The notes under the pieces were generated by a model that saw only the letters and a program-made list of their open reading frames with translations, searched no databases and was not told the origin of the DNA. Of a stretch of DNA of 64,000 bases, positions 31,178 to 39,674 are shown piece after piece. Source of the DNA: Cyanobacteriota bacterium (GTDB taxonomy: Bacteria > Cyanobacteriota > Cyanobacteriia > CACIAM-69d). Within the stretch, counting starts at the first letter, position 1. Each line of letters starts with the position of its first letter. The position numbers and the translations under genes were made by a program. Location: the NCBI GenBank assembly GCA_022402445.1, contig JAKRSF010000004.1, positions 586,120 to 650,119 on the forward strand, given 5' to 3'.

Positions 31178-32476
31178 ATGAACATTGTTGTTATTGGTCT
31201 GAGCCATAAGACTGCGCCGGTGGAGGTGCGCGAGCGCCTGAGCATTCCGGAGCCGGCCCTGGAGGAGGCGATGGGGCATCTGCTGGACTGCTCCCACGTG
31301 GAGGAGGTGGCGGTGCTGAGTACGTGCAACCGGCTAGAAATTTATTTTGTCACCAGCAGTACGGAGCAAGGGGTCCGGGAGGTGGTGGAGTTCCTGGCGG
31401 AGCGGGGTCGCCTGACGACGGAGGCCCTGCGCCAGCATTTGTTTATTCTGTTGCGCCAGGATGCGATCGCGCACCTGATGCGGGTGGCGGCGGGGCTCGA
31501 CAGTTTGGTGCTCGGGGAGGGGCAAATCCTGGCCCAGGTGAAGACCACCCACAAGCTGGGCAAGCAATATCAAGGGATTGGGCGGCTGCTGGATCGCCTG
31601 TTTAAACAGGCCCTGACGGCGGGCAAGCGGGTGCGGACGGAGACGAGCATTGGCACGGGGGCCGTGTCGATCAGTTCGGCGGCGGTGGAGTTGGCGCAAC
31701 TCAAGCTGGGGGATTTGTCGCAAAAGCGCATTGCGATCATTGGGGCGGGCAAGATGTCGCGGCTGCTGGTGCAGCATTTGCTCTCGAAGGGGGCGCAGCA
31801 AATCACGATCCTCAACCGGTCGATGGAGCGGGCGGAGGAGTTGGCCCAGCGCTTTAGTGAGGTGAAGCTCCACCTGCAACCGATCTGCAATCTGCTCAGC
31901 GCGATCGCGGCGGCGGACATCACCTTTACGAGCACGGGGGCAACGGAGCCGCTGGTGGATCGCGCCAAGCTGGAGCCGGTGCTAACGGGGGACCATGCCC
32001 TGACGATTTTTGATATTTCCGTGCCCCGGAACGTGACGGCGGATGTGAATGAGCTGCCGCTGGTGCAGGCGTTCGATGTGGATGACCTGAAGGAGGTGGT
32101 GGCCCAGAACCAGGAGAGCCGCCGCAAGATGGCCATGGAGGCCGAAGAACTGATCGAGGAGGAGGTGGATGCCTTCGAGGTGTGGTGGCGATCGCTCGAT
32201 ACGGTGGCGACGATCAACTGTTTGCGCCAAAAGGTGGAGTCGATCCGTGAGCAGGAGCTAGAGAAGGCCCTGTCGCGGCTGGGGTCGGAGTTTGGCGAAA
32301 AGCACAAGGATACGATCGAGGCCCTGACCCGAGGCATCGTCAACAAAATCCTCCACGATCCGATGGTGCAACTGCGGGCTCAGCAGGACATTGAGGCGCG
32401 CAAACGGGCCATGCAAACGCTCCATCTGCTGTTCAACCTGGAGGCGACGGATACGGAACAGCGGTTGGCGAGCTAG
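31178..32476 (+). CDS. hemA: Glutamyl-tRNA reductase
   Basis: 432-residue enzyme reducing glutamyl-tRNA to glutamate-1-semialdehyde, the first committed step of heme, chlorophyll and bilin synthesis. The nucleophilic cysteine is C50 in [11 protein letters not shown]. The catalytic domain motif [20 protein letters not shown] and the NADPH-binding [11 protein letters not shown] are clear. The last 100 residues are the helical dimerisation domain. It is a single gene with a bidirectional terminator downstream. Confidence 0.96.
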
Positions 32477-36623: not shown

Positions 36624-37022
36624 ATGGCTGAAAATGTGTCGATTGTGATTGATTTTCGCGATGCCGATCGCGATGACGTGCTTCTGGAGCGTCAGACCCA
36701 AACCCTATTCCGTGAGCTGCAACGGCTTGACGAGATTGCGGCGGTGGAGCGGGTGGCGGATCCGAATCCACCGGAGGGGAATTTTTCCGGCGGCAGTTGG
36801 CTACCTGGAAAGCTGGTGGTTCAGATCCTGGTCCAAGGAGTTGCAAAGGCAATGGGCGTGATCTCAAAGCAGTTGGGCGGACGGGCGATCGTGATTGAGA
36901 CAAAGGGACCTGGCGATTACAGGGTTGAAGTGAAAAATTCTGATGACCTAGAGAAGGCAACAAAACTCGTCCAGAAGCTTGCCCTGGGGGAACCGTTGGA
37001 TGATGGGACCCCCTCGAAGTAG
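36624..37022 (+). CDS. EACC1-like 'effector-associated constant component' protein
   Basis: 132-residue alpha/beta protein. The N-terminal strand and helix (ENVSIVIDFRDADRDDVLLERQTQTLFRELQRLD) are followed by a VADPNPPEGNFSGG turn, a helical region (LVVQILVQGVAKAMGVISKQLG) and a terminal strand-strand-helix (AIVIETKGPGDYRVEVKNSDDLEKATKLVQKL). This order, including the PPEG turn and the closing 'G-x-x-x-EV...A...' unit, resembles the small EACC1 proteins encoded just before effector genes in bacterial conflict systems. The assignment is from pattern memory. Its stop is six bases before the caspase start, so the two are almost certainly co-translated. Confidence 0.6.
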   Translation: MAENVSIVIDFRDADRDDVLLERQTQTLFRELQRLDEIAAVERVADPNPPEGNFSGGSWLPGKLVVQILVQGVAKAMGVISKQLGGRAIVIETKGPGDYRVEVKNSDDLEKATKLVQKLALGEPLDDGTPSK

Positions 37023-37028
37023 CGCCCT

Positions 37029-38753
37029 ATGGGGATTGGACAGAAGTTTGCGCTGCTGATTGGTGTGGGCGATTATGCCGAAGACTCGGGCCTCAAGGGA
37101 CTCAGTACGCCGACGCGGAATGTGGCGGCCCTAGCTGAGGTGCTGGGGAATGAGGCGGTGGGCGGGTTTGCGGTGACGCCGCTCCTGAATCCGACCCAGG
37201 TGGACATGAGTCGGGCAATTTCGGACCTATTCTATAGCCGCGATCGCGAGGATCTGCTGCTGCTCTATTTTTCGGGCCATGGCATCACGGATGAGGAACG
37301 GCGGCTCTATCTCAGCAACCGCGAAACGCGCAAATATGCCGACGGCACCCTGAATAAGGGCACGGCCATCAGCGCCAACACCATCAAAGACATGATGGGT
37401 AGCCCGCTCCATCGGCGGGTGATGGTGGTGCTGGACTGCTGTTTTGCTGGGGCTTTTGGTGAAGGCATCCTGACCATGGATGACCAGACGGTGGATGTGG
37501 CGGCGGCGCTGGGGGGCCAGGGGCGGGTGGTGCTGACGGCGGCCGATTCCATGGGCTATGCCCTCGAAGAGTCGGACCATGAGCTATCGGTCTATACGCG
37601 CTATTTCCATGAGGGGCTGGTGACGGGGGCGGCGGCGAGCGAGGGATCGGAGTGGATTTCGGCGCGGATGCTCCATGACTATGTGGCGACGCGGGTCCGG
37701 CTGGGGGGCTATGCCATGAAGCCGGAAATCTATGTGGAAAAGGACGGCTGCGGAATCTACGTGGCGCGAGCGAAACCTGGCGATCCGGAGGTGCGCTATC
37801 GGCGGGAATGCGCGGAATATTTTGACGATTCGTGCGGTATTTTTCCATCGGCGGCGGTGAAGCTTCTGGAACGCAAGGCAACGGGGCTCGGCATCACTCC
37901 AGAACGGGCGGCGGAACTGCGGGAGGCGGTGCGGCGACCGTGGGTGGAATATCGCGAGAATTTGCGGGAGTATCGCTTGGCGCTAGCTGAGGACTTGACC
38001 CACTATGGGATGCAGTTGCCGGAGGTGGCGCGGCGGGCTCTGGCGGCGTTGCGGCAGGAACTGAGTTTGAAGGATGAGGACGCCGACGCGATCAATGTGA
38101 AACTGATGGCGGCTGTGCCAGCATCGACCAAAGAAATCGTGAAACCTGTGACAGCCCCGGCAGCGGTAGAACTGAGCCGCGAGGAAGCACCCCAGCCCGC
38201 AACCGAACCGACGCCGCCACGCTATCAAAAGCTAGAGGAACTGCTGGCGGCGGGAGACTGGAAGGGGGCTGACCAGGAGACGCGAGCGGTGATGCTGGCG
38301 GTGGCGAACCGAAAGGAACAAGGGTGGCTGGATGAGGACAGCATTAACGAATTTCCCTGCGAGGATCTTCGGGCCATTGATGGTCTCTGGGTGCGCTATA
38401 GCCAGGGAAAGTTTGGCTTCAGTGTTCAGAAGGAAATTTATGTTGCCTGCGGCGCTAAGCTGGATGCGAAAAATCCCAGTTTGAATATTTGGAGAGCATT
38501 TGGGGATCGCGTGGGCTGGCGTTTGGAGGGTTGGTGGATCAATTGGACAAGCGTCTATTTCTATCTAGATGGGTTGAATCGCGGCACTCTTCCCGGGGCG
38601 TGGTTTGCAGGAGATTTGGCCGGTGCGGACCCGGGAGACGATTCTTATTCAGCGCGTCTAAAGAAGCTTTCCAATAACCAAGCTTGGCTTAGGAGCGCTA
38701 GGATATTCTCTCGCCTCACCCAAAGACTTGTAGCCAGATTAAACCATCAATGA
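37029..38753 (+). CDS. Caspase-like protease fused to a GUN4 domain
   Basis: 574 residues. Residues 1-250 are a C14/metacaspase-like peptidase: FALLIGVGDY, the catalytic H84 in YFSGHG and C138 in VLDCCFAG, with an intact dyad. Residues about 253-357 are two helical repeats (EYFDDSCGIFPSAAVKLLERKATGLGIT; ...LREYRLALAEDLTHYGMQLPEVARRAL) of a kind often seen between domains in cyanobacterial signalling proteins. After a Pro/Ala linker, residues about 397-525 form a GUN4 domain (LEELLAAGDWKGADQETRAV, LDEDSINEFPCEDLRAIDGLW, GKFGFSVQKEIY). GUN4 binds porphyrins and bilins in chlorophyll synthesis. The fusion suggests a protease whose activity is set by a tetrapyrrole or GUN4-type ligand. No signal peptide or membrane helix is seen. 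Confidence 0.85.
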   Translation: MGIGQKFALLIGVGDYAEDSGLKGLSTPTRNVAALAEVLGNEAVGGFAVTPLLNPTQVDMSRAISDLFYSRDREDLLLLYFSGHGITDEERRLYLSNRETRKYADGTLNKGTAISANTIKDMMGSPLHRRVMVVLDCCFAGAFGEGILTMDDQTVDVAAALGGQGRVVLTAADSMGYALEESDHELSVYTRYFHEGLVTGAAASEGSEWISARMLHDYVATRVRLGGYAMKPEIYVEKDGCGIYVARAKPGDPEVRYRRECAEYFDDSCGIFPSAAVKLLERKATGLGITPERAAELREAVRRPWVEYRENLREYRLALAEDLTHYGMQLPEVARRALAALRQELSLKDEDADAINVKLMAAVPASTKEIVKPVTAPAAVELSREEAPQPATEPTPPRYQKLEELLAAGDWKGADQETRAVMLAVANRKEQGWLDEDSINEFPCEDLRAIDGLWVRYSQGKFGFSVQKEIYVACGAKLDAKNPSLNIWRAFGDRVGWRLEGWWINWTSVYFYLDGLNRGTLPGAWFAGDLAGADPGDDSYSARLKKLSNNQAWLRSARIFSRLTQRLVARLNHQ

Positions 38754-38943
38754 TTTCGATATGGATAGGCGTGCTGTGGAAATAGCGATCGCCATCCCAG
38801 CCACTGTCGATCAGAGCATAGCTATCACGGGCCTCATCCACGAGAAGACGCGATCGGTAGGGACTATTGGCGCTGTTGCGATAGTCCACATGTTCTTGCA
38901 GGACAGCTTGGATAATGGCGCGGCAGTTCAGCGGGGTATCCAT
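38716..38943 (-). CDS. Truncated XisI-like protein
   Basis: 75-residue frame beginning MDTPLNCRAIIQAVLQEHVDY and ending IHIEIIDGLIWLQVFG. It matches the start and core of XisI-family proteins (about 110 residues), named after the fdxN-element excision factor but found widely beside other genes. The usual C-terminal third after IW-Q-DGTEEG is missing. The stop at 38716-38718 falls inside the antisense 3' end of the caspase-GUN4 gene (38 bases of overlap), and none of the three frames continues with XisI-like sequence. No XisH partner is adjacent. It is probably a remnant, though a short functional form cannot be excluded. Confidence 0.7.
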   Translation of the reverse strand: MDTPLNCRAIIQAVLQEHVDYRNSANSPYRSRLLVDEARDSYALIDSGWDGDRYFHSTPIHIEIIDGLIWLQVFG

Positions 38944-39011: not shown

Positions 39012-39620
39012 CTAGGGAAGTATGGCTGATAACTCAATTTCACCCCAAACCTGCCCCGCGATCGCGACGATCGCCCGTCCCCCCACCGGCACCATTTCGC
39101 AAACCTGATAATCAGCCCCCGCCGCCGTCATCACCGGTTCGCTGTAGCAAAACAATTGGCGATCGGGCAAACTGACAATCCAATACAGCGGAATCGCCGC
39201 CTCCGCATAGAGCCGCTTTTTGAGGCCGCGATCGCGCTCCAATGTCGCATCCGCAATTTCCACCACTAAACCCAAATCCGCCGCACCGGGGTGGCGATCG
39301 CGGTAATCACGGGGATCGCCACGGACAACCGTTAAATCCGGCTCCGGTTCACTCGTTGCCAACGTAATCGGCTCTTGACTATCGATATACCAACCATCGG
39401 GCGCGATCGCCTCGAATGCCGTGCGCAATAGCTTGGTGGCGAGGCGATGGGGCGGATTTTTCGGCATTTTCAGGGTCAGCAGACCGTCTAGGAGTTCCAC
39501 GCGATCGGCCTCAGTCAGGATGCCCGCGCTCACCATTTGGCGATATTGGGCAACGCTGAGCCGCCAGATCGGTTCACTGGGGACGGCAAACAGTTGGGGG
39601 TTCAGTGCAGTGGTGGACAT
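39012..39620 (-). CDS. Uma2 family endonuclease-like protein
   Basis: 202-residue member of the Uma2 (DUF820) family, a PD-(D/E)xK nuclease fold very abundant in cyanobacteria. Catalytic-type residues are seen in EPEPDLTVV (Asp), LVVEIADAT (Glu) and GLKKRLYAEAAIPLYWIV (Lys). Its biological role is not established; members often occur in accessory regions near mobile or toxin-like genes. The start is ATG 39620 (MSTTALNP); a longer frame to 39653 is not supported. It lies 68 bases upstream of the XisI-like gene on the same strand. Confidence 0.85.
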   Translation of the reverse strand: MSTTALNPQLFAVPSEPIWRLSVAQYRQMVSAGILTEADRVELLDGLLTLKMPKNPPHRLATKLLRTAFEAIAPDGWYIDSQEPITLATSEPEPDLTVVRGDPRDYRDRHPGAADLGLVVEIADATLERDRGLKKRLYAEAAIPLYWIVSLPDRQLFCYSEPVMTAAGADYQVCEMVPVGGRAIVAIAGQVWGEIELSAILP

Positions 39621-39674
39621 GGCAATTTCCCAAAGCCCAGATACCCCCATCATGCCTCGCTTCCCGCGATCGCC

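Follow-up and report, generated by a model that had tools for sequence, protein, structure and literature searches.

The window analysed here, a stretch of 64,000 nucleotides from a member of the Cyanobacteriota (contig JAKRSF010000004.1, positions 586,120 to 650,119), contains a pair of open reading frames (ORFs) on the forward strand, the first of which (ORF1, from an ATG at 36624 to a TAG ending at 37022) codes for a small EACC1-like protein and the second (ORF2) for a predicted caspase-like protease with a C-terminal GUN4 domain (Table 1). An earlier note on this DNA had given the coordinates and frames of both genes and their coupling over six bases, and all of these proved correct. A scan for promoters and terminators gave no more matches than were found in shuffled sequences. 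Loci in other genomes are cited below by our working handles (L plus number) where they need to be told apart.

Table 1. Features of the two-gene locus, with positions in the window
Feature	Position	Strand	Basis
ORF1, EACC1-like small alpha+beta protein, 132 aa	36624..37022	+	ORF call, profile link, hydropathy, AlphaFold2
Intergenic gap of six bases	37023..37028	+	
ORF2, predicted caspase-like protease with C-terminal GUN4, 574 aa	37029..38753	+	
Caspase domain, residues 6-223	37044..37697	+	PF00656; best-ranked solved folds are paracaspase MALT1
Codons of His84 and Cys138	37278-37280; 37440-37442	+	
Helical segment between caspase and GUN4, residues 253-362 (predicted)	37785..38114	+	AlphaFold2 model
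GUN4 domain, residues 397-523, without LxNxLR motif	38217..38597	+	PF05419
ORF2 tail, from GHLP-equivalent codons to element remnant; hypervariable position in related genes	38595..38705	+	
Weak remnant of conserved 3' DNA element, TTCTCTCGC..AGACTTGTA, 5-nt insertion	38706..38732	+	

The N-terminal part of ORF2 matches the caspase family in Pfam (E 6.8e-15), and among solved folds the ORF2 model is ranked closest to structures of the paracaspase MALT1, as expected of a caspase fold. The protein also passes, if narrowly, the NCBIfam model NF047832, 'caspase, EACC1-associated type', with 141 bits against a cut-off of 140 (143.6 bits in the genome-level search with this model). The His84/Cys138 dyad, described previously as intact, is indeed present, and across 40 aligned sequences including that of the window Cys138 never varies and His84 is shared by at least 90%; the loci L116 and L119 lack the His of the dyad. 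ORF2 thus carries the His/Cys dyad of family C14 and is a predicted protease. A Pfam scan of the linker between the caspase and GUN4 domains (37740-38219) was empty at E 0.01.

The earlier note had likened ORF1 to EACC1 (in the sense of PMC7159879 and PMC8195603; these and the other papers are cited here from the parts of their text available to us), a likeness that holds at the level of family profiles but fails in the direct search. ORF1 has no Pfam match to EACC1 (PF19953), nor has any other protein of its own genome, and the PF19953 cut-off is reached in none of the 291 cyanobacterial genomes, across which 13 weak matches were found, the best one and one other being relatives of ORF1. When 34 members of the ORF1 family were scanned singly, ten of them matched PF19953 at E <= 0.1, with a best E of 0.002. 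By comparison of profiles with hhalign, in contrast, 34 cyanobacterial ORF1-type proteins aligned with six of seven actinobacterial and proteobacterial partner proteins with a probability of 98.4 and a score of 86.3; the highest score among 100 column shuffles was 15.1, and the reversed profile reached 13.0. Two of these six partner proteins are themselves over the PF19953 cut-off; among all seven, two (L121 and L127) pass it, three stay below it and two are unmatched. Moreover, the cyanobacterial ORF1 profile matches before the caspase in all seven actinobacterial and proteobacterial loci (E 6e-10 to 1e-4; one match shares its open frame with the caspase and another is partial).

EACC1 belongs to the two-gene 'System 4' of Kaur et al. 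(2020), which occurs in actinobacteria and sporadically in proteobacteria and whose EACC1 is built on a single conserved transmembrane helix (PMC7159879). The best 19-residue hydropathy of the window's ORF1 is 1.43 and that of 33 cyanobacterial sequences ranges from 0.58 to 1.61, as compared to 1.84-2.16 in the six others, and the AlphaFold2 model of ORF1, of moderate confidence (mean predicted local distance difference test score of 77), places a beta strand and a helix in the segment concerned. Because a transmembrane helix is not seen in ORF1, as judged from hydropathy alone, we file the protein as EACC1-like rather than as EACC1 proper; the profiles suggest that it represents a divergent sister branch of EACC1, one for which a membrane-sensor model is not supported by the sequences at hand. 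A fold search of the Protein Data Bank with the ORF1 model returned common ferredoxin-like arrangements, none at E <= 0.001; the best match (Z 7.5) is at a level the tool calls unspecific, and no function is read from it. Against phage records ORF1 gave no match at E 0.01. In one genome an EACC1-like domain is fused to the C-terminus of a Roc-COR GTPase (L237:1462-4983, G165:C6), adjoining an AAA ATPase gene and two EAD10 genes, one of them with WD40, and the EACC1-like domain is thus not restricted to caspase pairs.

A survey of the neighbours of homologues bore out the pairing of the two genes as a recurrent one. A single-sequence search with ORF1 in the 291 genomes gave matches at 34 places in 24 genomes, its own gene included, and at 29 of these a caspase of the NF047832 type lies directly downstream on the same strand (one of the 29 scoring below the cut-off of the model); five are without it. 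The NF047832 cut-off, in turn, is passed at 41 places in 27 of the 291 genomes, and the small partner lies upstream of 34 of the 41 caspases, once as a fragment, and is missing from seven, a count that follows partly by construction, most of these neighbours having gone into the small-gene profile. Among the best 80 of 517 confirmed named cyanobacterial loci, 52 have the partner upstream and 12 have GUN4 in the caspase frame, eight of these with the partner and four without. From a plasmid collection with a caspase match in 99 records nine loci were taken, seven actinobacterial or proteobacterial and two cyanobacterial, the partner being present in one of the latter (L128) and absent from the other (L120). 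In 81 cyanobacterial pairs whose partner stretch has some 97 residues or more, distances between partners correlate with those between caspases (r 0.677, not corrected for the species tree; as high in none of 2000 permutations): partner and caspase diverge in parallel. Within the window's own family one of six genomes has the partner. The two-gene unit is accessory and mostly kept together where it is present.

Some individual loci deserve mention here. The nearest row to the window caspase, L129, has the EACC1-like gene, the caspase and GUN4, the last two in different frames, and Pepco-domain genes stand before caspase-GUN4 loci in L129 (1960-2388) and L317 (7207-7629). In L128, on a plasmid of Pseudanabaena galeata, the EACC1-like/caspase pair adjoins XisI and XisH genes, and the annotated caspase has just 159 aa and lies upstream of an IS1380 transposase gene. 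In L137 a caspase without a partner is preceded, to judge by eye, by what seems to be a decayed EACC1-like gene of which the 3' end is left, and some orphan caspases may thus have lost their partner.

The C-terminal GUN4 domain attributed to the protease is confirmed by its match to PF05419 (E 1.6e-33, 116.2 bits against a cut-off of 29.2); the PADLOC model PD-T4-6 also matches this part of ORF2 (E 1e-36). GUN4 is one of several endings in this family: of 40 members (39 relatives plus the window protein, not counting the broken L114) 15 match FGE-sulfatase in Pfam, six GUN4, five periplasmic-binding and four TPR. When mapped on a tree of 128 caspase domains, the occurrence of GUN4 requires 11 changes, of which starred branches force at least seven, and these changes mark the domain as a swapped module; the tree is a quick one with several long branches, that of the window among them, and leaves out L114 and the short L128. 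The nearest GUN4 in genomes of the same family, 53% identical, forms the end of two NACHT proteins (L226 and L227; G045:C9 and G033:C10), and to judge from such sequences GUN4 appears to occupy the sensor end of several immune-type architectures. Ends of the FGE/C-lectin type have been proposed to be antigen sensors of conflict systems (PMC10907252), whereas Kaur et al. regard the variable C-terminal ends as effectors that are released by self-cleavage (PMC7159879). Our data do not decide between these roles, but they favour sensing because the commonest alternative modules are ligand-binding in nature, and as one of several interchangeable C-terminal modules GUN4 is probably better taken for a sensor.

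The 3' ends of many related GUN4 genes share a DNA element with the consensus TCTCTTCTCTCGC(A/G)TCGAGACTTGTAAA, which is translated in three frames and offers stops in all of them. When up to two mismatches are allowed, 38 of the 291 cyanobacterial genomes contain it, at 78 places in all, and the reversed control is not found. Together with those in other loci analysed here, 99 distinct places with up to four substitutions were collected; as they were found via the element, the conservation of the element itself is due to the selection of places, whereas that of the sequence upstream is not. GUN4 codons of the GHLP type lie at most 260 bases upstream of the element in 82 of the 99 places and are missing from 17 (one substitution was allowed in this search and a few may be chance matches). 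The tract between the GHLP codons and the element measures 29-159 bases, with lengths spread evenly over the frames (28, 27 and 27). In 36 close pairs, which are 85% or more identical in the 330 bases leading up to the tract, mean identity amounts to 83-87% in five 60-base windows upstream and to 86% in the element plus 32 bases, but drops to 48% in the tract, as compared to 47% for random pairs of tracts, and tract length differs in 35 of the 36. The genomes of L282 and L286 share one identical tract, so tails can be inherited as well.

The tracts appear to be coding sequence. An in-frame stop is found in five of 77 tracts of up to 110 bases, against 39 and 45 in the other two frames and a mean of 43.9 (minimum 32) in 1000 rounds of shuffling, which argues that the tails are translated and selected to remain open. 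Over the 72 open tracts the element is read equally in its three frames (24/24/24); 64 end at one of the three stops of the element, three slightly beyond it and five not within the sequence read. The tracts average 73% G+T as compared to 48% upstream (composition G.39, T.33, A.17, C.11), and 58 of the 77 but none of 77 upstream segments exceed 65% G+T, leaving 19 tracts that do not. The resulting tail peptides are rich in Gly, Val, Trp, Leu and Phe, and the genes which bear them (L285, L248-L250, L257, L278, L197, L295 and other loci) include kinase-GUN4, TIR-GUN4, caspase-GUN4 and NACHT-GUN4 fusions. One tract of 87 bases, the single one examined in this respect, has no second copy in its genome.

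Two other descriptions of these ends were considered. The peptide tails SRLVNC, SRIETC and SHRDL, a pattern found in 14 of 21 GUN4 stretches (once at an inner GUN4 end) and in one of 295 control frames, are not a protein motif but one DNA element in three frames. Nor do the tracts show the fixed-length, adenine-directed variation of targets of a diversity-generating retroelement (DGR), given their differing lengths and G/T-rich composition; adenine-directed change was judged from composition. As to the arrangement of the ends, in L284 (G147:C7) a frame that looks kinase-like by eye runs directly, without a GUN4 anchor, into a tract end and element, and its last 30 tract bases are identical to those of L258; the tail may have moved between genes. 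L197, from Scytonema sp. NIES-4073, and L290 each contain three tract-plus-element ends in a row, every one preceded by GHLP-type codons, and in L295 / L315:8993-9044 the element and its downstream flank are tandemly duplicated, 51 bases apart.

The window's own GUN4 end differs from these tails. An intact element is absent from its genome, both as a 23-mer at two mismatches and as a 25-mer at three. The weak remnant near the end of ORF2 is the best-scoring place among 750 overlapping tiles on both strands of the window and stands at the expected position, but its score of 28 is equalled or exceeded by 11 of 1000 shuffled versions of the segment (best shuffle 35). The tail is not biased towards G/T, its G+T content being 0.57 and that of the remainder of ORF2 0.56. 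The link is suggestive, and the window's GUN4 end would be at most a frozen member of the variable-tail family. With confidence somewhat short of even in the proposal as a whole, we suggest that cyanobacterial conflict proteins use GUN4 as an immune-receptor scaffold, that a dedicated process inserts tails of random length and random sequence between the GHLP codons and the three-frame-stop element, in a manner like junctional diversity and unlike a retroelement, and that the window operon is a now-fixed member of this group with a soluble EACC1-like switch.

The operon had been placed in an accessory-looking stretch, which is true of part of its surroundings. Downstream of ORF2 Pfam finds a Uma2 gene (39015-39653) and a short XisI gene (38719-38943, 75 aa, profile positions 1-71 of 110), the latter on the opposite strand and overlapping the end of ORF2; no XisH was found among the scanned ORFs next to it. 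The rest resembles ordinary chromosome, with rplU/rpmA, ftsH and pyk (names from reading the translations). By eye, the rplU flank is occupied by other reading frames in five relatives of the same family, so no conserved neighbourhood backs a core function. A hemA gene (glutamyl-tRNA reductase, identified by eye) lies at 31178-32476, about 4 kb upstream of the operon; it was considered as a tetrapyrrole link and set aside, as nothing ties it to the two-gene unit.

How, then, might the unit work? We lean, with a little more than even confidence, towards a cyanobacterial two-gene conflict unit of the EACC1-caspase kind that serves immunity or regulated death. Its architecture is supported by the sequence evidence described above, from which we infer how the unit would assemble, sense, activate its protease and produce an immune outcome; an immune or cell-death role, as proposed in the earlier note, is plausible. 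The GUN4 end would act as the sensor and recognise a signal of damage or one derived from an intruder; rather than a tetrapyrrole, its tail would most likely bind a protein or some other surface. As the constant partner, the EACC1-like protein would keep the protease in a controlled state or assemble it into one. Once the signal has been recognised, the complex would be able to switch on the caspase, its effector, which would cut cell proteins, and the cell would stop.

Several points weigh against such a conflict unit. We know of no phage, death or protease experiment for the two-gene unit. ORF1 itself does not match PF19953, and among its relatives DUF2604 scores as well as EACC1 (three of 34, best E 0.0018), so that single-protein scans alone are not decisive. 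Among the best 80 of the 517 related caspases 28 have no detectable partner, the unit lies mostly among core chromosomal genes, with Uma2 and a short XisI close by, instead of in a rich defence island, and the window tail, lacking both G/T bias and an intact element, may be frozen. Finally, caspase homologues of cyanobacteria are also discussed for ordinary homeostasis (PMC7517822). The pair might accordingly serve ordinary regulated proteolysis, ORF2 being an orthocaspase of physiology, ageing or abiotic stress, GUN4 a protein-docking domain and the partner an inhibitor or chaperone, and it would fit with this that the gene pair is kept in the window without a surrounding set of defence genes. 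We nevertheless consider it unlikely, since the patchy presence of both the caspase (27 of 291 genomes) and the partner (one of six family genomes), the swapping of modules and the kinship with a predicted conflict system point to an accessory, arms-race role. The missing intact element (at three mismatches) with its weak remnant at the end of ORF2, the unbiased tail and the long branch of the window caspase would also be consistent with a frozen or decaying relic, that is, an immune unit that may have lost its response to any trigger, its sensor tail having ceased to diversify. This we regard as the most improbable of the alternatives, as both reading frames and the dyad are intact and both products still match their family profiles.

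A further alternative, the gating of the protease by a porphyrin or bilin as put forward in the earlier note, takes GUN4 to bind the tetrapyrrole, to report photosynthetic or pigment stress and to switch the caspase on or off. A tetrapyrrole-sensor idea for GUN4 fusions is already in print (PMC7159879), and the binding fold on which it depends is kept, as the strong PF05419 match indicates; what did not stand are the known binding residues. The Asn of the LxNxLR motif is required for bilin binding in Chlamydomonas GUN4 (PMC10156173), and F191 and R211 of plant GUN4 matter for porphyrin (PMC8967248); from the spacing in the chloroplast GUN4 chain we infer that R211 corresponds to the Arg of LxNxLR, and F191 to the Phe in the 'EFxW' that comes before it. 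This caspase family was represented by 19 GUN4 domains, each from a different locus and that of L129 in a separate frame; the Phe, Asn and Arg of these sites are kept in none of the 19 and the first Leu of LxNxLR in one, whereas the housekeeping Gun4 of the window's own genome keeps both the motif and the inferred porphyrin residues. Likewise, no GUN4 member of the paralogue clade in the published tree keeps the key Asn (PMC10156173). In related genes it is the variable tail that occupies the position of the motif, and a fixed ligand fits poorly with the hypervariability of this region. Then again, loss of the motif Asn did not abolish porphyrin binding by a Chlamydomonas GUN4 (PMC10156173), and other residues may serve for binding. 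With a GUN4 fold that is kept and known tetrapyrrole-binding residues that are lost in 19 of 19 domains, we rate tetrapyrrole gating below ordinary proteolysis, though above a relic, and prefer the conflict unit with a sensor end that binds a protein or other surface.

With this pair, switches of the EACC1 type are seen to reach cyanobacteria in a form that does without the membrane helix underlying the published activation model, and the easy 'pigment sensor' reading of GUN4 fusions is weakened. The tails of related GUN4 genes look like a bacterial receptor repertoire that is random in length and sequence and has a frame-independent end signal; if it is true that a mechanism renews them, this would be a route to receptor diversity beside DGRs. 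Searches of the open literature found no description of variable GUN4 tails, although subscription papers could hold one. GUN4-like domains are listed among features of DGR variable proteins or their paralogues (PMC7517822), and 'hypervariable' in the available text of PMC7159879 concerns DGR/FGS or other systems.

Compared with known systems, the tail-bearing GUN4 proteins share with DGR-diversified conflict sensors (PMC10907252) a variable C-terminal sensor end on conflict-type effectors and conserved DNA on the 3' side of the variable part, and differ from them in that their tracts vary in length, are G/T-rich and, in the one case mentioned, have no second copy. The GUN4 domain of the window resembles the housekeeping Gun4, the Mg-chelatase cofactor (1y6i, 1z3x; E 2.6e-12 to 1z3x), but lacks its LxNxLR. 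Caspase-GUN4 proteins of cyanobacteria have been described as meta- or orthocaspases (PMC2853523, 2010; PMC8283722, 2021), 29 of 473 orthocaspases carrying GUN4 (PMC8283722), whereas the available parts of these two papers mention neither a small partner gene upstream nor lost tetrapyrrole residues nor a variable tail. Closest is System 4 of Kaur et al., with which the pair has in common a small 5' gene of the EACC1 type, related by profile, directly before a caspase that has a variable C-terminus and passes NF047832. Different from System 4 however, the cyanobacterial partner branch is not transmembrane-like by hydropathy, and GUN4 is not named among the System 4 variable domains in the text of PMC7159879 available to us. 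The cyanobacterial pair is a sister branch of System 4.

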